NCBI RefSeq assembly: GCF_003687725.1
Contig: NZ_RDOJ01000002.1
Span: forward strand, 63,249-127,248
From: Faecalibacter macacae
GTDB lineage: Bacteria > Bacteroidota > Bacteroidia > Flavobacteriales > Weeksellaceae
Direction of reading: 5' to 3'
Length of the DNA stretch: 64,000 bases
Shown: one piece after another, positions 20,364 to 43,749 of the stretch
Numbering within the stretch: the stretch's first letter is position 1
How the letters are laid out: every line of letters begins with the position of its first letter
Notes under the pieces: generated by a model
Seen by the model: the letters and a program-made list of their open reading frames with translations, nothing else
The model's database searches: none
What the model was told of the DNA's origin: nothing
Made by a program: the position numbers and the translations under genes

Positions 20364-20401
20364 CATCAGAGAAAACGTAATAGACCACGTTTAACACAAC
20401 T

Positions 20402-20486
20402 GGAGAGTTGGCAGAGTGGTCGAATGCGGCAGTCTTGAAAACTGTTGAGGGTCATACCTCCGGGGGTTCGAATCCCTCACTCTCCG
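20402..20486 (+). tRNA. tRNA-Ser (UGA anticodon)
   Basis: 85-nt class II tRNA. The acceptor GGAGAGT pairs with ACTCTCC at 20479-20485, with discriminator G. The anticodon loop CTTGAAA gives TGA, the variable arm is long, and the T-loop is GTTCGAATC. CCA is not encoded. Confidence 0.97.
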
Positions 20487-20491
20487 CTAAG

Positions 20492-20524
20492 AAGCCTTGA
20501 AGTTTACTCTTCGAGGCTTTTTTT
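20492..20524 (+). terminator. Terminator after tRNA-Ser
   Basis: AAGCCTTGAAG/CTTCGAGGCTT stem (one G-T pair) with a TTTACT loop and a T7 run. Confidence 0.8.
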
Positions 20525-20662
20525 GTGTATTAAAATTACTTCATCAATTAACATTTAGAAAGAGTTGGAAGTGTATTTGAAAGAAATACATTTAAATAAA
20601 AAATATTAATTGTTTTTATTTAGATTTAGTCTTAATATATTTGAATGAATTAAAACTTACTC

Positions 20663-21273
20663 ATGAAAACTCAAATTTTAGCTTTTTTAGCTTTAGGAAC
20701 TTCTATAGCTATGGCACAAAATAAAAAAACAGAACCAGTAATACTTCCAGCTGATGTTCAGGTAAAAATAGCTTTATTGGCAGCACCAGAAAATGTCCGC
20801 GGAGATGCTAAAGTTTTAGGATACAACGAAAAAGGTGATGTTGTTGAATTAAAAACGGTACAAGTAATTTTATTTGCCTAGCACCAGATTATAAAATGCC
20901 AAACTATTACGCTTCTTACTGTTATCCAGATTCTTTAGAACCATTAATGGCGCGTGGTCGCGAATTAATAAAAGAAGGAAAAAGAAATCAAAGAAATGAT
21001 ATACGTGCAAAAGAATATGAAGAACGTAAATTCTCTATACCTAAAGCACCTACAACTATGTATGGTTATTGGGGTACTTTAGCCAATTTAGATCAAACAA
21101 CTGGTGAAATGAGCGATGCAAAAAGAAGATATGTAATCTACGTATCTGGTGCAAAAGCTAGTGATTTAGGTTTATCAAATCAACCAAATAATCTTGGAAT
21201 GCCTTGGTTAATGGACGAAGGAACTTACAAAGCACACATAATGATTACCCCGCCAATAGAACATAAACATTAA
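20663..21273 (+). pseudogene. Secreted hypothetical protein gene with a one-base frameshift
   Basis: Frame one (20663-20881) encodes a signal peptide MKTQILAFLALGTSIAMA and about 50 mature residues, ending at a TAG at 20879. The natural continuation lies in another frame: from about 20857 it reads GTSNFICLAPDYKMP and runs through a 125-residue frame to 21273 (ending ITPPIEHKH). One missing base near 20855-20858 (ACGG where ACGGG would restore the frame) explains both pieces. The restored protein would be about 203 residues, exported, of unknown function. The downstream half is well preserved, so the lesion is recent or an error. Confidence 0.75.
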
Positions 21274-21277
21274 TAAT

Positions 21278-21304
21278 AAAGGCTTCCTAATAGGAAGCCT
21301 TTTC
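21278..21304. terminator. Bidirectional terminator
   Basis: AAAGGCTTCCT/AGGAAGCCTTT stem. It separates the frameshifted secreted-protein gene from the end of the minus-strand operon. Confidence 0.8.
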
Positions 21305-21307
21305 TTT

Positions 21308-22210
21308 TTATTTTTTAAAATTTTCAGAAACTATTAATTTCAGAGCATTAATCGATCCATCATCATTTTTAAATTTATGTCGTATTGATTTATAATGATC
21401 TAAAACTTCTACTGACTTATGATATAATACTGAATCTACTTCTTTTTTAGGAACATAATTATCAGGATAAGCATAGACAAAATATCCACTCTCTCGCTCA
21501 TAAGTAGGTATTTGGAAAAATTTTCTTTTTACAAATTCATTTTTTTTCTCATTACTATATTCCGCTTCAGTATAAAAATCTACTGCATGAGAAGGGTAAC
21601 CAAATAAATACCCAAATCCACGCAAACGATCGTATTTAAAGCCGTATTCATTTGCTGTTATTAGTATTTCTGGATTTACACCTTCTACCCAACCAAATTG
21701 ACCAAAAAAGTGCTTATGCTCTCGTAATACTCTATTTACTGCACTTTCTCTTGCTACATAAAGTTGTATATTTTTTTCTTTTTTATTATTTGACTTATAT
21801 GGTAAAACAAAGAATTTTAAATCTGGAATATTTAATTGATTAAATCCGTCTTGTATATTTTTAATTTGATCCAAATATTTTTGATTCTCAACCTCATCAA
21901 ATGCTTTTCCAGATATATAAGCTAAACTATCAGTATTAGCAATTGGAAATGTATACATTGACAAACTACTAATAGGCTTTATATCTGATATTAAGGTATA
22001 TAAAGCTTCACGGTCAAGACCTTTTTGCAAAATAGAATCAATTAGTACTGATGTTTCAGCTGAAAGAGGATTTGTATTAGATACAACTTCATTTTGGACT
22101 TTTGTTTGTGGTTTTGAAGATGTATAAGTTATTTTACAGCTTGTTAAAAATGCTGTAGTTAATATTACAATAGATGTATTTCTTACAAAGAATTTCTTAA
22201 TCGTCTTCAT
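21308..22210 (-). CDS. Hypothetical lipoprotein, last gene of the C25-like operon
   Basis: A 300-residue protein with a lipoprotein signal (LTTAFLTSC, cleavage before Cys25). The mature part shows no family I recognise. It is mixed alpha/beta, with FFGQFGWVEGVNPEILITANEYGF and FGYLFGYPSHAVDF as its most motif-like stretches. It starts 8 bp after the 739-residue C25-like protein and is the last gene before a terminator, so it is probably co-transcribed with that surface system. Function is unknown. Confidence 0.75.
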   Translation of the reverse strand: MKTIKKFFVRNTSIVILTTAFLTSCKITYTSSKPQTKVQNEVVSNTNPLSAETSVLIDSILQKGLDREALYTLISDIKPISSLSMYTFPIANTDSLAYISGKAFDEVENQKYLDQIKNIQDGFNQLNIPDLKFFVLPYKSNNKKEKNIQLYVARESAVNRVLREHKHFFGQFGWVEGVNPEILITANEYGFKYDRLRGFGYLFGYPSHAVDFYTEAEYSNEKKNEFVKRKFFQIPTYERESGYFVYAYPDNYVPKKEVDSVLYHKSVEVLDHYKSIRHKFKNDDGSINALKLIVSENFKK

Positions 22211-22218
22211 ATAATTAT

Positions 22219-24438
22219 TTAAAATTGGCGTTTAGAAGCATCTTTCATAATCTGCTTTGTTTTATTAATTTGATAAATAACTTCTTCGTTTGATTCAGTT
22301 TTTACAATCTCATTTAATTGATCTATGATTTGGTTACCTTTAGTTGAAAGTCCAAACCAACTTATTACTTCTGCCGCATTAACACGATTTGAAGTTGGTT
22401 TAGATTTGTCTTTAAGAATTGCAATTACATAAGGTAACATTGATTGATAACGATATAAACGTAAAGTTCTTAATTCGCTATTTAGTTCCTTTTCCGTAAT
22501 TCCTTCTTTTGTTAAATCAACAATTTTACGAGATAATTTATTTTGCTCGTATTCTAATTTACGAACTGCTTCTGCTAACAATTCATTTGAATTATAAATT
22601 TGGTTATTCCCTTCTAATTTTTCTTTAAGAAGTTGAATTGCTTTGGCATGATCTATAAATTGAAAATTCCAATTAATTCTATATTGAATTCGAGCTAATT
22701 CTTGATCATTAATATAAGCATTAATTAATTCTTCTAAATATCTATTTCCATCTATATCACTAATATCATACAACGCTTTACGTTTAATATATTCGTTATT
22801 ATCTGTAAGTGCTAAAGGTAAAATAGCTATAAAATCTTCGTTATTATATGTTCTTAATTGATAATAAGCCTGCGTACGTACATTATCAAATGGAGAGGTT
22901 TGAAAAATTTCAACTAACTGTTTTGAGAAAACATTTTCTGGTTCTGTTTTAGCTAATTCAGTAATTGCATATGATTGTAAATCTGCATCATTCACCTTCA
23001 ATAAATTTTTCCACTCTTTTGATGATGTCTTTTGTTTTGAAAACAATGAATTATATTCTTTAGCAGTAGATGCAGTAAAATGATATGTTGGATCTCCTAA
23101 AATATGTGTTTCTAAAAAAGCCGTTTTCTTTAAAAGATGACCTGTTCTAGCACCATGTTGTAAAATACCTAACAATTGCGTACCCCATAAATCTTGTAAT
23201 ACACCAACTGTGTTAGCAAATGCAACAATATTTTTACCTTCAGAAAAAGGATAAGATGCTGCTATATAATTCTTCTTATGAAAAGAACCAGTTAAACATG
23301 AATTAAGATATGCAACACGAACATTTACTCCTTTTAAATCTTCGGCATGAATATCCATATTTTGATTAAATATAGAATCTTCGTTTATAGTATTAGCATC
23401 AAAAGCATCATCAAACCATTTATCATTTAAACCTAATGAATTTTGAAAATCAGTTTTCGTTTTTTCTAAATCTCGGCCAGCATCTTTTGCATTTCTCATT
23501 TTAGAACGTATGTAACGCCCAACATTTACCATTGATAATTGAGGAGATGATGTATCAGGATATCCGTTTAATAATTGTAAATCCACCGTTCCATGACCTG
23601 TCATATAAGCAAAATCTAAATTATCTCTATACAATTCTGTCAGCAAATTATTCTTTAAAAACGTTGAATTTCGATAATTTAAAAACTTGATTGTATTCCC
23701 TTGTTGAAACAATTTTGGGAAAGAAGTTCTAAAAGCTAATAACTCATTCCCCCAGCTGATAGAAGAATTTGAATTATACCCATGACCAGTTGAAGCAATC
23801 AAATGATTTAATGGATTATTTTCTTCACGAATTTTCACCAATTTAGTTAAATAAGATTTAATTTGTTCAACAGAATTATCTACTTCCCCAGTAACAGCTG
23901 GTTTTATACGTCCTGTGTAAATATCCATTTCGATATAATGTGGACTATCTGCTTTAAATTGATAATAATGAATATTTTGACGATTTTTATATTCATCTTG
24001 TTTTAAATAATCAAATTTCAAATCAAAATCATCATAAAAACGATCAGATGCAACTGAAGAATTTTCCCACTTAGATGATTCAGGATATTTGAAAGCTGAA
24101 GTCATTACTTGACCACCACGAACCATTGCTATTGGTATATTACCAACGAATACAGCTCCTTCTAAGGGTTGTTTTTTATCTTGATATAACTGAAATAAAA
24201 TTGATTTTATTTCATCAGGATTTTTCCAATTATGTTGAATAATATAGGTACCTAAACCATCTTTTTCTATACTTTTTTGATAAGCTTTAATTTCTTCTTT
24301 CGTTTGTTGATACGTTAAGTTATCAACTACAATTGCAAACGATGTTTTAGTTTTAACATTAGGTTTAATTATCTCTTGCGCTGTTGTAAAAACAGTAGAA
24401 AAAGTTAAAGTAGATAAGATTAAAAAATATTTTCTCAT
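22219..24438 (-). CDS. Gingipain/caspase-like (C25-type) domain protein with HEAT repeats, paralogue 2
   Basis: A 739-residue exported protein (signal peptide ending near FTTAQ). The N-terminal half has a clan CD cysteine-peptidase layout: VGNIPIAMV, then YMTGHG with His282 and YLNSC with Cys381 as the likely dyad. ETHILGDPTYHF follows, the G-D-P-T element also found in gingipain-type C25 enzymes. The second half (about 470-739) is a run of helical HEAT-like repeats. It is a clear paralogue of the 721-residue protein, 7 bp upstream. No pro-domain or T9SS C-terminal domain was recognised. Peptidase activity is inferred from the dyad. Confidence 0.75.
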   Translation of the reverse strand: MRKYFLILSTLTFSTVFTTAQEIIKPNVKTKTSFAIVVDNLTYQQTKEEIKAYQKSIEKDGLGTYIIQHNWKNPDEIKSILFQLYQDKKQPLEGAVFVGNIPIAMVRGGQVMTSAFKYPESSKWENSSVASDRFYDDFDLKFDYLKQDEYKNRQNIHYYQFKADSPHYIEMDIYTGRIKPAVTGEVDNSVEQIKSYLTKLVKIREENNPLNHLIASTGHGYNSNSSISWGNELLAFRTSFPKLFQQGNTIKFLNYRNSTFLKNNLLTELYRDNLDFAYMTGHGTVDLQLLNGYPDTSSPQLSMVNVGRYIRSKMRNAKDAGRDLEKTKTDFQNSLGLNDKWFDDAFDANTINEDSIFNQNMDIHAEDLKGVNVRVAYLNSCLTGSFHKKNYIAASYPFSEGKNIVAFANTVGVLQDLWGTQLLGILQHGARTGHLLKKTAFLETHILGDPTYHFTASTAKEYNSLFSKQKTSSKEWKNLLKVNDADLQSYAITELAKTEPENVFSKQLVEIFQTSPFDNVRTQAYYQLRTYNNEDFIAILPLALTDNNEYIKRKALYDISDIDGNRYLEELINAYINDQELARIQYRINWNFQFIDHAKAIQLLKEKLEGNNQIYNSNELLAEAVRKLEYEQNKLSRKIVDLTKEGITEKELNSELRTLRLYRYQSMLPYVIAILKDKSKPTSNRVNAAEVISWFGLSTKGNQIIDQLNEIVKTESNEEVIYQINKTKQIMKDASKRQF

Positions 24439-24445
24439 GAGTAGT

Positions 24446-26611
24446 TTAATTTAAAATTGAAAGTGTACGTTGTGCTTGGTATTTTATTTCATCAGATGAT
24501 GTATTATCAACTAATATTTGCTTACAATATGACTTTATTATTGATTTTTGGTGCGAATCTTTAAACCATGATAAAGCTTCTAAAGTTAAAATTGTTTGCT
24601 TTTCATTATTTGGGTGTGTTTTTAAGAATTGTATAACATCAGGAATATAAGGATGCAAACGATATGCACGTAAAACACCTAAAGTAAACTTAACATCTTT
24701 TTCTGGTAAAGTACCATCACGTAATTGATCGAAATAGCGTGCTATAAAAGTTCCTTTCGCAATTTTTTGACGCATTTCTGTAATAAACTCCTTATCAAAA
24801 ATAGGATGATTTTTTACTTCACGATCAAAAGACATTAATACTTTATCACGTTCAAAAAAATCTAACATTCTTTCTATATTAAACGAAGTACGATTAGACA
24901 TTCTATCTTCAAAATATAAGGCTATTAATGGTTGTATAAATTCTTCAGATCCAATTTCTCCCATATCATAAACTGATATACGACGTAGATATTCATAATT
25001 ATCTTTAGAAGCATCTACAATTATTTGATGCCAATTTGTAGGTTTTAATCGCTTTAAAATTAAATACGCTTCAGTACGAACTACTTCGTCTTGACTTTGA
25101 TAAAATTTATCAGAAACAATTTTTGATGTTGATTGATTTGGGTAGTATTGTGCAAGTTTTCTTAGAGCAATTGCTTGCACATCAGCTATCGGATGATCTA
25201 ACAAACTTTTCCAATATTTTTCGTTTGTATTATGTGCAAGTTCTTTATTCCAAGCCAATTGATTTTCTGCCGTGAAACTAAAAGTCGGATCTCCAAAAAT
25301 GTGCGTTTCTAAATAGGCCGAGTGTTTTAAAATTTGGCCAACTCGAGTTCCGTTCTGTATTAATCCCATCATTTCATTAGCCCATAAATCTTGTAATACA
25401 CCAACAGAATTAGCAAATGTTGCAATATTATTACCTTTAGAAAACGGATAATATCCTGCAATATATTCATCTAATTGAAAAGAACCATTTAAACAAGAAT
25501 CCAAATACACTAATTTTGCATTAACATTCCAATCTTTTAAATCTGCTAAACTTATAGTTAAATTTTCTTGATAAATAGAATCTTGAAGAATCACTTCTTT
25601 ATCAAAAACATTTTCAAACCATTTATCATTTAAACCTAATTGATTTTGTAAATTTTGTTTTTGTTCGTTTAAATCTTTGTTCCCTTCTTTTGCTTTTCGC
25701 TTTTGTGAACGCACATAACGAGAAACATTTTCCATGGACACACTCGGATTTGATCCAACTGGATTTGCACTCACTATTTGATAATCTGGCAAACCATGAC
25801 CGTTAAAATATGCATAATCAACCTCTGGACGAGCTAATTGAGTCATCCAATACGCTTTCATAAAATTTTTATTATTATAACTTGAAAATTTTATTTGATT
25901 AGATGATTGAAACAAACCTTTAAATTGATTTTTAAATCCAAATAAAACACTACTCCAGCTATTTAAAGCGTTAGAATTATAGCCTTCTGCAGTATAAGTT
26001 GTGATATTATTTAAAGGATTAATTTCAGATTTTTGTGCAATTACTTTTTGTAAATACGAACGAATATAAGCTACACTTTCTTCCTTTTTTGCTGTAGGAG
26101 GTTTTAAACGACCTGAATATATATCCATTTGTATATACTGAGGACTTTTAGCATCTAATTGATAATAATATAAGTTTGATTTTTTTTCATCTTGTTTTAT
26201 AAAATTAAACTGCAAATCAAAATCATCATAAAAACGATCCGAAGGTACAGAAGATTCAATCCAATCCATGTCTTGTGGCATCTTAAAAGTAGATGTTAAA
26301 TGCTGCGCATCACGGATCATTGGAACAGGAATATTACCAATAAGAATTGTACCCTCTAACTTATTATTGGTATACAATTGCTTTAATTCTGTACGAATTT
26401 GGTCTGGATTTTTCCAATCATTTTTTAATATAAATACATTTAATCCTTCTTTTTCTAAAGCTAATTTATATGCTTCTAACTCTGTATTTAAATGATTCCC
26501 ATGGTATTGATCAATCACAATTGCAAATGATGATTGAGAACTTTGTCCAAGCACGAAAGGAGCTACTAATAATGTAACTCCTAACGCTAAATTTCTGATG
26601 TTTCTTTTCAT
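24446..26611 (-). CDS. Gingipain/caspase-like (C25-type) domain protein with HEAT repeats, paralogue 1
   Basis: A 721-residue exported protein (signal peptide through about GQSSQ). The candidate catalytic dyad is His272 in YFNGHGLPD and Cys373 in YLDSCLNGSF, followed by LETHIFGDPTFSFTA near 440. A C-terminal half of HEAT-like repeats follows, for example WKSLLDHPIADVQAIALRKLAQ. Shared landmarks with the downstream paralogue (SVPSDRFYDDFDLQFNF, QMDIYSGRLKP, GVLQDLWANEMMG) show a tandem duplication. It begins one base after the end of the broken TonB receptor and so belongs to the same transcript. Substrate is unknown. Confidence 0.75.
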   Translation of the reverse strand: MKRNIRNLALGVTLLVAPFVLGQSSQSSFAIVIDQYHGNHLNTELEAYKLALEKEGLNVFILKNDWKNPDQIRTELKQLYTNNKLEGTILIGNIPVPMIRDAQHLTSTFKMPQDMDWIESSVPSDRFYDDFDLQFNFIKQDEKKSNLYYYQLDAKSPQYIQMDIYSGRLKPPTAKKEESVAYIRSYLQKVIAQKSEINPLNNITTYTAEGYNSNALNSWSSVLFGFKNQFKGLFQSSNQIKFSSYNNKNFMKAYWMTQLARPEVDYAYFNGHGLPDYQIVSANPVGSNPSVSMENVSRYVRSQKRKAKEGNKDLNEQKQNLQNQLGLNDKWFENVFDKEVILQDSIYQENLTISLADLKDWNVNAKLVYLDSCLNGSFQLDEYIAGYYPFSKGNNIATFANSVGVLQDLWANEMMGLIQNGTRVGQILKHSAYLETHIFGDPTFSFTAENQLAWNKELAHNTNEKYWKSLLDHPIADVQAIALRKLAQYYPNQSTSKIVSDKFYQSQDEVVRTEAYLILKRLKPTNWHQIIVDASKDNYEYLRRISVYDMGEIGSEEFIQPLIALYFEDRMSNRTSFNIERMLDFFERDKVLMSFDREVKNHPIFDKEFITEMRQKIAKGTFIARYFDQLRDGTLPEKDVKFTLGVLRAYRLHPYIPDVIQFLKTHPNNEKQTILTLEALSWFKDSHQKSIIKSYCKQILVDNTSSDEIKYQAQRTLSILN

Positions 26612-26612
26612 T

Positions 26613-28804
26613 TTAGTTGATTAATCCAATCGTAAAATTGAAGTAATTGTTTGATAGTCCTTTTGCTGAATCTAACATTGTTTCAGTTGAAGAGATATTT
26701 TGATAGTTAGTTTTAAAATATAATTGAGCATTCGTTTTTTTAAATGCTGGTAAAGTATATTGCACTTCTAATTGATTTGCCCAATAATTTGTGTTTTGAT
26801 AAGCAAAATTTGGATTCAAAATATTACGAGAAACAAAATTTGTAAAAGACGGATTTTCTTGATGACGTAATAAATTATCGCCAACAAATTTTAAAGCTGT
26901 ATTAAATCCAAGAGATAAATTAGAATTGTTCATGTTGAACCATTTTTTAACCTGTGCATTTATAATATAATCTTCATATTCCATTCTTGTGAAAGTTGTA
27001 GGATATTGTTGACCATCATAATTATAAGTTAATCCTGCTCCTGCTGCCCATGATGGTTGATTATCTTTTAAAATCTGCACACCATAATTAAATGCAATTT
27101 GATTTTTTAATTGAAAATTGTTAATCCATTTTCCATTCGAAATGCAGCATTTATACGTGAACTAATTGATTGTAAATCATAAGAAGAATCAAACGGTTGT
27201 ACTAAATCGTATCTAAGTCCAGCTATAATATTCAATTTATTTGTACCTAAATCAGTACTTAAATGGTCTTGTACATACCCTCCTAATTGATGCATTGCTG
27301 GTATATCACTAAATGCACGTGTTCTGTAAGCCGAACCATTAGTATTACGTGGTGGTCTAGTAAAAGTTTTTCCATCTCCGTAATTTGCATCCATTAACCA
27401 ATCTAAACCTGTTAAAATTGAGTGATTAACTTTACCAGTTAAAAAATAAAATTGATTTGAAACCTTAACAGCCGTATTTAAAGGATTTCCTTCAACCCAC
27501 ATTCTACTTAAATAAGAAGATGGCAAATAGCTTACTTCATTTGTTCCGTTTGTGATTGCATAAGATTCTGCAGTTACATCAGCATCATAATACGTTTGTT
27601 GATATCCTATTTGCATTCCATAATTTATAGAAGCATTATATTTAAAAGTTCTTGAAAATTTCTTATCAAAATCAACAACTCCATTTGTGGTAAATCGTAT
27701 ATAGCGTTCTTTAGCATCATTCTTAGTTTGATCATATGCCATATCAGGATCCATATCATACAAATCACGTGCATATGTGAATGCTAGAGTCGAATTTGAT
27801 CGCCAATTTTTCTTAACACCAAATCGATTTGTATATTGGACAGTACCAGTTGTTCTTGTATAATTTTGGTATTTATTTGTTTCTTTATCGTTACTTTTTG
27901 TGTAATCTAAATCAACATATAAACTTCCAGCATCAGTTCCTAAATCAAATCCTTTCCCTCCCCAAAACTGAGTAACTGTTGGATTAAAACGTGCTTTTAA
28001 TTGTAATGGTTCTTTACGTGCTTTGGTCTGTACAATTATAGCTCCTGAATATAAATCACCATATTCAACCGATGGAATACCACGTATAACCTCAACACTT
28101 TCAATATTATCTGCATTTATTTGGCGTAAATCAGCACCACCACCACTTGATGTAGAAAATGAGGCATTTGTACCAGCTGTTGCAGAATTTGTAACTTGTA
28201 AATTGGCATTATTTTATAATGATGTACCATTAACAATAACAGAAGTTCCTAAAGATCCTAACTTATCTGTACTATATTGACGAATACTTGCTTGATTTGC
28301 ATTATTGAAATTAGGATTTGTTACCATATTTCCTGGTACCAATTGTAATACTTCTTGTAAGCTTGTTGCTTGTAAATGTTCAATAGCTTTACGGTTTATT
28401 ACTGTAGAAGTTGTTCCATTACTATTACTTTCTTTACCTAATAGTACAACTTCACCTAAATTTAATTGATTTGCAGAAAATTCAAATAAATGGTTTTGTT
28501 GGCTAGCATCTATTATAAATTCAGGTATAATATAATCACCATGTTCTACAATAATTGTAAAATTTCTTTGCGGAATACTTTGAAATAAAACATTACCAGT
28601 TTCATCTGAAAATGCCTCTAATCCAAGTTCTTTTATAATCACTTTAGCATCTACAATAGGCAAACTTTTATCTTTATTTAACAATTTAAGAGTTATGTTT
28701 GATTGGATTGTATAAGCATGGCTATTAGTATCAATCTGTTGAGCGTTAGTTAAATTTGAAAAAAGTAAACATGCTAAAACAATTGAAATTTTGTAAAGTT
28801 TCAT
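26613..28804 (-). pseudogene. TonB-dependent receptor, interrupted by a stop and a frameshift, possibly fused to another barrel protein
   Basis: The first part (28804-28214) has a signal peptide, a carboxypeptidase-like regulatory domain and a TonB plug domain (VINRKAIEHLQATSLQEVLQ). It hits an in-frame TAA at 28214-28216. The same frame continues (NNANLQVTNSA, then IESVEVIRGIPSVEYGDLYSG), so the stop is a point lesion. That frame ends at 27107 after INAAFRMENGLTIFN. A frameshift then leads to a 155-residue barrel-like tail ending FNFTIGLIN, which lacks the usual terminal aromatic of TonB receptors. The tail may come from a neighbouring outer-membrane protein (DUF6850-like), implying an internal deletion. 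Confidence 0.75.
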
Positions 28805-28826
28805 TTTAAAGTTTTAAATAGTTGCG

Positions 28827-28858
28827 CAAAACTAAATTGTTATTTAGAATTAGTCCAA
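28827..28858 (-). promoter_or_regulatory. Promoter of the TonB/C25-like operon
   Basis: On the minus strand TTG (28858-28856), a 21-base spacer and TAGTTTTG (28834-28827), giving a leader of about 20 nt. The promoter is intact although its first gene is broken. Confidence 0.7.
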
Positions 28859-28959
28859 CTAAAATTTAATAATTGTTATCATTATTTAAACTAAATCTAA
28901 ATAATTTTTAACTTTATATTAAGGTTATACTCTAAATATGTATCTTATCGGAAAATTTA

Positions 28960-29058
28960 ATGATTGAGGATTTTAAGTTTAAATATGATTCTCGTATCAT
29001 AGAAAGAATATCAGCTGGTCCTGGAGCAAGACAAAAAGCATTGGATTCAGAAAACTGA
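28960..29058 (+). pseudogene. Possible remnant of a sigma-70-like gene
   Basis: A 32-codon frame beginning MIEDFKFKYDSRIIERISA and continuing GPGARQKALDSEN before a TGA. The pattern 'IIxxIxAGxGxRQKALxxL' resembles the N terminus of Bacteroidota ECF-type sigma factors just ahead of region 2. Nothing downstream continues it. Too short for certainty. Confidence 0.3.
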
Positions 29059-29227
29059 ATGCAGATAAAAATAGAAAATCTGAAATATGAAGCAATACAC
29101 AATGAGGTAATAAAATTACTATCTTATAACGGTAAAGGTTTTTAAATTAAAAAATAACTTGCTCCCGCACAATTGTATTGAGCATCAAGTATCAATAAAA
29201 AACCTTACAAAATAAAATTTTTAGAGT

Positions 29228-29260
29228 TTGTTATTTTATTACTATATAATACTAATTTTG
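29228..29260 (+). promoter_or_regulatory. Promoter of the MarR-family gene
   Basis: TTG at 29228-29230, a 22-base spacer and TAATTTTG at 29253-29260. Leader about 19 nt. Confidence 0.7.
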
Positions 29261-29282
29261 TATATAAAATGAATAATAAAAT

Positions 29283-29933
29283 ATGAAATACACTTTATTA
29301 AAAGACATTATTTATAGTTTAGAAAAATACGATGAACATTGTAAAAAGGAGTCCATTGAAGATATTGACTTTGAATCATATAAATCTTGGTTATTAGAGG
29401 AACCTACTCAATTTGTTTCTTGGGATGGTAAAGAAAAAGGCCGTTCAATGAATAGCATCATTAACACCTTAATTGTCCACCTAAATAGATATGCCAAAAC
29501 TTACTCAAAATCAGTAATACAGAATACTGAATTCGTTTCACAAGAAGATTTCATCTATTTAATTAATTTAAATGCATTTGGAGCAATGACTAAAATGGAT
29601 TTGATTAAGAAAAATATTCATGAAAAATCTCCTGGAATGCAAATTATTAATCGTTTAATTGCAAAAGGTTGGATAGATCAAATTGATGATGAAATAGATA
29701 AAAGACAAAAATTAATTTCTATAACTACAGAAGGTAAAAAAATCCTTGAAGAAAATATGGCGAATATTAGAAATGCAACTAATATTGTAACTGGTGATTT
29801 AACAGATAAAGAAAAAATTGTTTTAATATCTTTATTACAAAAACTAGACAATTACCACTACCCTATATATACTGCTAATAAAAAACCAGAGGAGCTATTA
29901 GAGTATGTAAATAAATTAGAAAACAGTATCTAA
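29283..29933 (+). CDS. MarR-family transcriptional regulator
   Basis: A 216-residue winged-helix regulator. The N-terminal 85 residues form a helical dimerisation region. The wHTH follows: SQEDFIYLINLNAFGAMTKMDLIKKN, then GMQIINRLIAKGWI as recognition helix and DDEIDKRQKLISITTEGKKIL as the wing. The Asp-x-Arg in the wing is the usual MarR signature. It is longer than typical MarR proteins (about 150) because of the N-terminal extension. It stands alone between the TonB/C25-like operon and the adhesin-like gene; targets cannot be read from the sequence. Confidence 0.85.
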   Translation: MKYTLLKDIIYSLEKYDEHCKKESIEDIDFESYKSWLLEEPTQFVSWDGKEKGRSMNSIINTLIVHLNRYAKTYSKSVIQNTEFVSQEDFIYLINLNAFGAMTKMDLIKKNIHEKSPGMQIINRLIAKGWIDQIDDEIDKRQKLISITTEGKKILEENMANIRNATNIVTGDLTDKEKIVLISLLQKLDNYHYPIYTANKKPEELLEYVNKLENSI

Positions 29934-43093: not shown

Positions 43094-43101
43094 AACTTAT
43101 G

Positions 43102-43175
43102 AGCCGATGGAGGGATTCGAACCCACGACCTGCTGATTACAAATCAGCTGCTCTGGCCAACTGAGCTACATCGGC
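43102..43175 (-). tRNA. tRNA-Thr (UGU), copy 1 by coordinate
   Basis: 74 nt on the minus strand. Acceptor GCCGATG/CATCGGC, anticodon loop TTGTAAT (TGT), T-loop GTTCGAATC. CCA not encoded. Confidence 0.97.
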
Positions 43176-43182
43176 AATTTAG

Positions 43183-43263
43183 TGGGGAGAGCAGGATTCG
43201 AACCTGCGAAGGTTACCCAACGGATTTACAGTCCGTCCTCGTTGGCCGCTTGAGTATCTCCCC
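43183..43263 (-). tRNA. tRNA-Tyr (GUA), copy 1 by coordinate
   Basis: 81 nt class II tRNA on the minus strand. Acceptor GGGGAGA/TCTCCCC, anticodon GTA within CTGTAAA, a variable arm, and discriminator A. Confidence 0.97.
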
Positions 43264-43294
43264 AATAAAATAATATTTTTCTTCAAAGAATTTG

Positions 43295-43368
43295 AGCCGA
43301 TGGAGGGATTCGAACCCACGACCTGCTGATTACAAATCAGCTGCTCTGGCCAACTGAGCTACATCGGC
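43295..43368 (-). tRNA. tRNA-Thr (UGU), copy 2
   Basis: Identical to the copy at 43102-43175, offset by exactly 193 bp. Confidence 0.97.
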
Positions 43369-43375
43369 AATTTAG

Positions 43376-43456
43376 TGGGGAGAGCAGGATTCGAACCTGC
43401 GAAGGTTACCCAACGGATTTACAGTCCGTCCTCGTTGGCCGCTTGAGTATCTCCCC
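43376..43456 (-). tRNA. tRNA-Tyr (GUA), copy 2
   Basis: Identical to the copy at 43183-43263, offset by 193 bp. Confidence 0.97.
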
Positions 43457-43487
43457 AATAAAATAATATTTTTCTTCAAAGAATTTG

Positions 43488-43561
43488 AGCCGATGGAGGG
43501 ATTCGAACCCACGACCTGCTGATTACAAATCAGCTGCTCTGGCCAACTGAGCTACATCGGC
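43488..43561 (-). tRNA. tRNA-Thr (UGU), copy 3
   Basis: Identical to the other Thr copies. The following spacer has one extra T. Confidence 0.97.
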
Positions 43562-43569
43562 AATTTTAG

Positions 43570-43650
43570 TGGGGAGAGCAGGATTCGAACCTGCGAAGGT
43601 TACCCAACGGATTTACAGTCCGTCCTCGTTGGCCGCTTGAGTATCTCCCC
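43570..43650 (-). tRNA. tRNA-Tyr (GUA), copy 3
   Basis: Identical Tyr tRNA. The spacer on its high-coordinate side differs from the other spacers. Confidence 0.97.
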
Positions 43651-43675
43651 GACTATTATTCTTTATTTTCTTTGG

Positions 43676-43749
43676 AGCCGATGGAGGGATTCGAACCCAC
43701 GACCTGCTGATTACAAATCAGCTGCTCTGGCCAACTGAGCTACATCGGC
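43676..43749 (-). tRNA. tRNA-Thr (UGU), copy 4
   Basis: First tRNA of the array in transcription order, identical to the other three Thr copies. Confidence 0.97.

Follow-up and report, generated by a model that had tools for sequence, protein, structure and literature searches.

What is a cluster of four genes doing beside a tRNA gene of Faecalibacter macacae when the gene at its head is broken and two of the others remain open frames for protease-like proteins? The cluster lies in a stretch of 64,000 nucleotides (NCBI RefSeq assembly GCF_003687725.1, contig NZ_RDOJ01000002.1, positions 63,249 to 127,248 of the forward strand), called the window here and numbered from its first letter. The original prediction, made from these letters alone, was of an operon encoding a broken TonB receptor, two exported caspase/gingipain-like proteins with HEAT tails (G1 and G2) and a lipoprotein. 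Our preferred answer, offered tentatively, is that the locus may represent a TonB uptake module of Bacteroidota, protease-armed and so far undescribed, in a copy that was placed here horizontally and has decayed.

The four minus-strand genes were found where they had been placed, from 28804 to 21308, with gaps of 1, 7 and 8 bp. The receptor is indeed broken, but what had been taken for a single gene proved to be two remnants, one of a receptor and one of a DUF6850 protein, and the limits first given to the locus were incomplete, as they overlooked a broken, cassette-linked gene (c0) on the opposite strand. The features of the region are:

20402-20487, plus strand: tRNA-Ser (tga) gene found by ARAGORN, the left edge of the cassette; synteny with the sibling genome G021 breaks at 20487 and is back at 29234.
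20662-21276, plus strand: c0, broken gene of a family of exported proteins of about 200 amino acids, with its frame broken near 20855 (tblastn of 27 relatives).
21278-21302, readable on both strands: terminator-like hairpin between the convergent c0 gene and operon (5 such hairpins found in the region, 2.3 expected).
21308-22210, minus strand: lipoprotein P0003, 300 amino acids, open frame, with the lipobox LTSC that bears out its naming as a lipoprotein.
22219-24438, minus strand: G2, 739 amino acids, paralogue of G1, His282/Cys381, open frame.
24446-26611, minus strand: G1, 721 amino acids, gingipain-fold head and HEAT tail, open frame.
25262-26539, minus strand: gingipain-fold head of G1 (residues 25-450).
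24449-25228, minus strand: helical, HEAT-type solenoid tail of G1 (residues 462-721).
25796-25798, minus strand: codon of G1 His272, a conserved column.
25493-25495, minus strand: codon of G1 Cys373, a conserved column.
26613-27080, minus strand: remnant of a DUF6850 outer-membrane barrel, about 150 C-terminal residues (Pfam DUF6850, 65.4 bits, profile positions 321-463 of 464; tblastn).
27107-28804, minus strand: remnant of a TonB-dependent receptor, the N-terminal 60% or so, with one in-frame stop at 28216-28214 (Plug, CarbopepD_reg_2; tblastn).
28868-28886, minus strand: weak Fur-box-like 19-mer, agreeing at 15 of 19 positions with a Fur-box consensus.

G1 and G2 are two exported paralogues, as predicted, with 41% identity across G1 residues 23-719. 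The predicted structure of G1 has a caspase-like, gingipain-fold head, followed by a solenoid tail of tandem helical hairpins that stays helical to its end. The proposal of such a head and a HEAT tail on both proteins is thus upheld by the model for G1, but for G2 only through its being a 41% identical paralogue; Pfam HEAT_2 scored 22.5 bits in G1 (under the cut-off of 27.7) and 32.4 bits in G2 (over it). In G1 the predicted His-Cys pair is His272/Cys373 and the GDPT element spans residues 440-443; in G2 they are His282/Cys381 and residues 448-451. Because the His and Cys columns were both kept in 136 of the 147 aligned members, window pair included (a count that takes in loci L006-L012 and near-identical copies), the dyad is not a product of chance; the remaining 11 comprise one gap and ten short paralogues from Sphingobacterium that lack the pair. 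The structure alignment comprised 89 of the 123 listed relatives and the two window proteins. In the G1 model the order is of the catalytic type, His before Cys, each after successive strands, and this order, together with the overall superposition, would be in keeping with His272 and Cys373 lying close to one another.

Pfam C25 (PF01364) had no match in G1 or G2, and when 49 heads were compared with PF01364, 4 matched with E values no higher than 1, the best being 6.3e-5; of ten heads examined singly only that of L052 matched, and its 18.2 bits fell short of the cut-off of 23. As this cut-off is missed, the family is not filed in Pfam C25. Profile-profile comparison gave C25 a probability of 48% for the head against whole PorU, 37.5% with the whole of G, and 14.9% for the head against the C25 part with all residues forced; a global-mode profile alignment was unproductive. 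Searching PDB sequences with the head returned five ribosomal-protein matches at E 0.55 or worse and no gingipain, NCBIfam searches with G1, G2 and the lipoprotein gave no family, and the viral contigs searched held no relative. Histidine 209, in the GHGY position that the profile aligner paired with the GHG of PorU, was considered as the catalytic residue and rejected: GHGY occurs in only 75 of the 147 members, G1 has Glu there, and the GHGY histidine sits 46 residues past the GR motif rather than about 110.

Relatives of the locus were collected by a scan of genome contigs, which gave 79 distinct loci from the best 80 of 533 confirmed matches, a biased selection (L001-L005, the window's own copies and two weak matches, were excluded from all counts, and L006-L012 from the 79). 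The families of the TonB receptor, DUF4876 and DUF6850 were all present in 69 of the 79 loci, as an adjacent triplet in 67, and in 53 a G gene stood directly behind the triplet; several of the ten loci without all three families end at contig ends. The linkage with receptor, DUF4876 and DUF6850 genes suggested earlier therefore recurs in most of the loci read. Two outcomes named in advance as counting against the prediction, a fold other than caspase-like for the paralogues (here seen for G1) and genes never found together, did not occur. Bacteroides, Sphingobacterium, Pedobacter and Chitinophaga are among the bearers. There is one long G gene in 47 loci, two in 14 and three in 17, and L040 has none above the length limit. 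In the tree, G1 clusters with the G gene that comes first in L013-L015 (SH-like approximate likelihood ratio test, SH-aLRT, 100); G2 clusters with the one that comes second there and with the only G gene of L026 (SH-aLRT 99), so the pair has probably travelled as a unit. Among 395 sampled genomes of the phylum, seven (the window's own counted) had a full-length G member and three more gave weak partial matches; all seven also had DUF4876 and DUF6850, each of which was over its cut-off in 37 genomes.

Other neighbours were more scattered; those named here and below as peroxidase, M16, S9, permease, FecR or extracytoplasmic function (ECF) sigma genes took their names from Pfam matches of one or two members per cluster and otherwise from single-linkage BLAST clusters. 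An M16 gene lay on the same strand 21 bp (L007) and 9 bp (L050) from G, S9-type genes were convergent to G in L057, L071, L072 and L088, and an amino acid permease adjoined a relative of the lipoprotein in L023, L041, L063 and L085. FecR-type genes were present in 11 of the 79 loci and ECF-sigma-type genes in 6. Lipoprotein P0003 itself had relatives in 6 of the 79 loci. A 73-kb circular record of Bacteroides finegoldii (L012, NZ_OY725920.1) carries a full three-protein cassette along with genes for ParA and DUF3408, a setting which suggests that mobile elements spread the cassette.

Twenty protease-free triplet regions were hand-picked from genomes with DUF4876/DUF6850 matches, and the adjacency of TonB receptor, DUF4876 and DUF6850 genes was kept in all 20. 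In 8 of them (L165-L168, L173, L177, L179 and L182) a gene of one BLAST cluster followed DUF6850 on the same strand, within 30 bp or overlapping by called starts in 7 and 560 bp off in one; its L165 member is a di-haem cytochrome c peroxidase (CCP)/MauG-type peroxidase by Pfam, the others belonging by BLAST cluster. ATP-binding cassette (ABC) genes occurred near L170-L172, PepSY genes near L170 and L172, and P0003 relatives in 4 of the 20 (split in one); the c0 family, found in 27 of the 79 cassette loci, was in none of these 20. As the triplet stays adjacent while its partner genes differ, it looks like the core, and the enzymes look like exchangeable tools.

Measured against the relatives from the cassette loci, the window copy has decayed. 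In tblastn their intact receptors matched 28744-27116 in one frame over residues 23-564 of about 920 (55-58% for the L013/L014 receptors), and this first piece carries Pfam Plug, with CarbopepD_reg_2 under its cut-off. A different frame, 27068-26616, matched the last 150 or so residues of the relatives' DUF6850 protein, and the DUF4876 proteins of the same relatives had no match anywhere in the window. The receptor C-terminus, DUF4876 and the DUF6850 N-terminus are thus lost from the locus, about 3.4 kb as estimated from the gene lengths of L013. The c0 relatives (all 27, tblastn) matched 20654-20857 and, in a second frame, 20848-21270. The suspicion that the receptor's partners had been lost was well placed, as they are missing or cut here; the same genome carries two open TonB-DUF4876-DUF6850 triplets elsewhere, on contigs 46 and 3.

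The sibling genome G021 is syntenic with the window as far as 20487, where tRNA-Ser ends, and from 29234 onwards. The intervening part of G021 is about 51 kb long, starting with an integrase-like gene (read by eye) and containing two 50-60-bp matches to window 20465-20524 (tRNA end and terminator) and no whole tRNA. Neither the G genes nor c0 occurred in any of the other 13 genomes from the genus. This pattern would fit acquisition by transfer into an integration site and later decay, and loss in the siblings is a possible alternative. The tRNA-Ser gene looks like an integration hot spot, with 20488-29233 in the window and L145-L147 in the G021 region.

It is quite possible, if somewhat short of an even chance, that the locus is simply a dead island in this organism whose open frames have not yet decayed, which is compatible with the other readings for intact copies. 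The receptor, DUF6850, DUF4876 and c0 genes are all broken or gone, the G and c0 genes are missing from the other 13 genomes, and the locus adjoins a tRNA gene that bears an island in the sibling. Yet the three genes for G1, G2 and the lipoprotein are still open throughout, G1 and G2 both keeping the conserved pair; they may either be on the way out or still serve the two intact triplets elsewhere.

For the uptake module, a role in iron supply is suggested by a published passage (PMC10434189), in which dipyridyl raises BT1933-39 of B. thetaiotaomicron by 3.5-7.4-fold, its BT3625-33 by 38-128-fold and PG1019-22 of P. gingivalis by 21-214-fold. The passage annotates BT1933-39 as an IS256 transposase, hypotheticals, a HEAT protein, DUF4876 and a TonB receptor, and the gene number and order of L012 fit BT1934-39. 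Low-iron induction of the cassette would follow from that passage if the genes are the same, and a link with iron in F. macacae would follow by analogy. Upstream of the receptor remnant, the Fur-like site at 28868-28886 has a p of 0.0045 in its own 300-bp upstream region; it is weak and does not recur in relatives. The single consensus promoter that had been proposed for the operon did not hold up, with 57 sigma-70-like matches against 56.9 expected in 20400-29300; the Bacteroidota-type promoter pattern had 8 exact matches in the window, none of them on the receptor's strand ahead of that gene.

G1 and G2 have a plain signal peptide (read by eye) with no lipobox, and Pfam Por_Secre_tail, the sorting domain of the type IX secretion system (T9SS), had no match in either. 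With a signal peptide and neither lipobox nor T9SS tail, the periplasm is their default site, and the "surface proteolysis" first suggested is not borne out. Acidic residues just after the lipobox Cys may mark surface export in Bacteroidota; by a simple rule 45 of 74 DUF4876 proteins have a lipobox, 25 of these with at least two acidic residues directly past the Cys, and the DUF4876 lipoprotein is probably surface-exposed. In intact copies, the TonB receptor, DUF4876 lipoprotein and DUF6850 barrel would import an iron-bearing cargo, which could be a protein, a peptide or a chelate of peptide type. This cargo would then be cut in the periplasm, with release of iron and peptides, by one to three gingipain-fold cysteine peptidases that their HEAT solenoids would hold or direct. 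Such periplasmic digestion of imported cargo, by analogy with the published Fus/PqqL systems (PMC6793856), is the reading we favour, at a little less than even confidence.

Several points weigh against it. The module in this genome cannot work as encoded. BT1933-39 is this cassette only apparently, by the product names of a published passage and gene order. The window holds six Fur-like sites of equal score, and of 65 receptor genes in relatives only one has an upstream site with a Fur-like score of at least 14. As 30 of the 37 genomes with DUF4876 have no full-length G protein, G is accessory. Some G members may be lipoproteins: a signal heuristic, itself crude, classed 127 G proteins as 81 signal peptidase I (SPI)-like, 5 lipobox-like and 41 in neither class. 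Finally, since the ten Sphingobacterium paralogues (632-671 amino acids) lack the dyad, some members could possibly bind without cutting.

Proteolysis at or beyond the surface, in the manner of gingipains, with iron, haem or peptides stripped outside the cell and the products imported by the receptor, seems unlikely: the gingipain fold would suit it, and a YCF48/BNR-type protein adjoins single G genes in six loci (L007-L010, L090 and L091), that of L008 (assigned by Pfam, and the one tested) bearing a T9SS sorting tail, but G1 and G2 have no T9SS tail match or lipobox, and we know of no export role for DUF6850. Less probable again is a gingipain-fold binding or chaperone protein, its HEAT tail holding the cargo. 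The dyad-less subfamily (ten proteins) points that way; its members, likely pseudo-enzymes, are paralogue pairs of G on the minus strand adjoining c0 in L022, L024, L027, L037 and L058. The dyad is nevertheless kept in the other 136 aligned members with residues there. Least probable is export or maturation, in which the receptor/barrel pair would release or process the proteases or another cell protein by analogy with PopC, whose secretion reportedly needs a TonB-dependent transporter: the receptor-lipoprotein-barrel-G order in one operon (53 of 79 loci) and a CarboxypepD_reg domain at the receptor N-terminus would suit it, but most of the sampled genomes with the triplet have it without the proteases, and its relatives respond to low iron like uptake systems.

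What can be said of intact copies is that proteins combining a gingipain-fold head with a HEAT tail are widespread in Bacteroidota and tied to a TonB cassette, whose apparent counterpart in B. thetaiotaomicron responds to low iron in the published passage. If the import reading is true, a dominant gut phylum would join the bacteria that take up whole proteins and digest them in the periplasm, using another class of enzyme, and DUF4876 and DUF6850 would gain a role. A bolder and rather doubtful extension is that Bacteroidota have their own class of import-and-digest systems, in which the TonB receptor, surface lipoprotein and DUF6850 barrel would carry a whole iron-bearing protein or large peptide into the periplasm, to be taken apart there by one to three gingipain-fold/HEAT cysteine peptidases unrelated to the Fus M16 enzymes, the triplet being equipped with other tools (di-haem MauG-type peroxidase, PepSY/ABC) for other cargoes. 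Elsewhere in the window, at 43101-43749, tRNA-Thr genes alternate with tRNA-Tyr genes in a tandem array (4 Thr, 3 Tyr).

In the literature searched, the enzyme fold is known, and no functional description of the G family, its HEAT combination or the cassette was found. With the gingipains RgpB and Kgp (C25, clan CD) G1 has its fold in common at 12-16% identity; G1 and G2 differ from them in having a HEAT tail, in lacking a T9SS tail or Pfam C25 match, and in lying in a TonB-receptor operon. Compared with PorU, G has about 67 more residues between His and Cys, helical in the model. The genome also encodes a C25 protein, G000:C3, which we take to be PorU from its match to Pfam C25; its open frame has 1,334 amino acids and is unlinked to the window locus, and no HEAT tail was seen in it, though none was looked for. 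Proteins of this PorU type gave a weak colinear profile match in the N-terminal part of the catalytic domain. BT1933-39, BT3625-33 and PG1019-22, compared by their published description only (PMC10434189), have a TonB receptor and DUF4876 in common with the cassette and are induced by low iron, and BT1933-39 also lists a HEAT protein, as the cassette has. In kind the cassette resembles Fus and PqqL-YddB (PMC6793856), in which, as in the cassette if G is a protease, a TonB receptor gene is linked to that of an exported protease; in the window the receptor is broken. The heading of that paper names Proteobacteria, and the portion of text consulted holds no word starting "Bacteroidet". Iron-linked expression is published there for PqqL and FusC, and would apply here by analogy through BT1933-39. 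The Fus/PqqL-YddB protease is an M16 metallopeptidase, whereas that of the cassette would be of gingipain fold, with M16 only an occasional neighbour, and the cassette adds DUF4876 and DUF6850 as partners.
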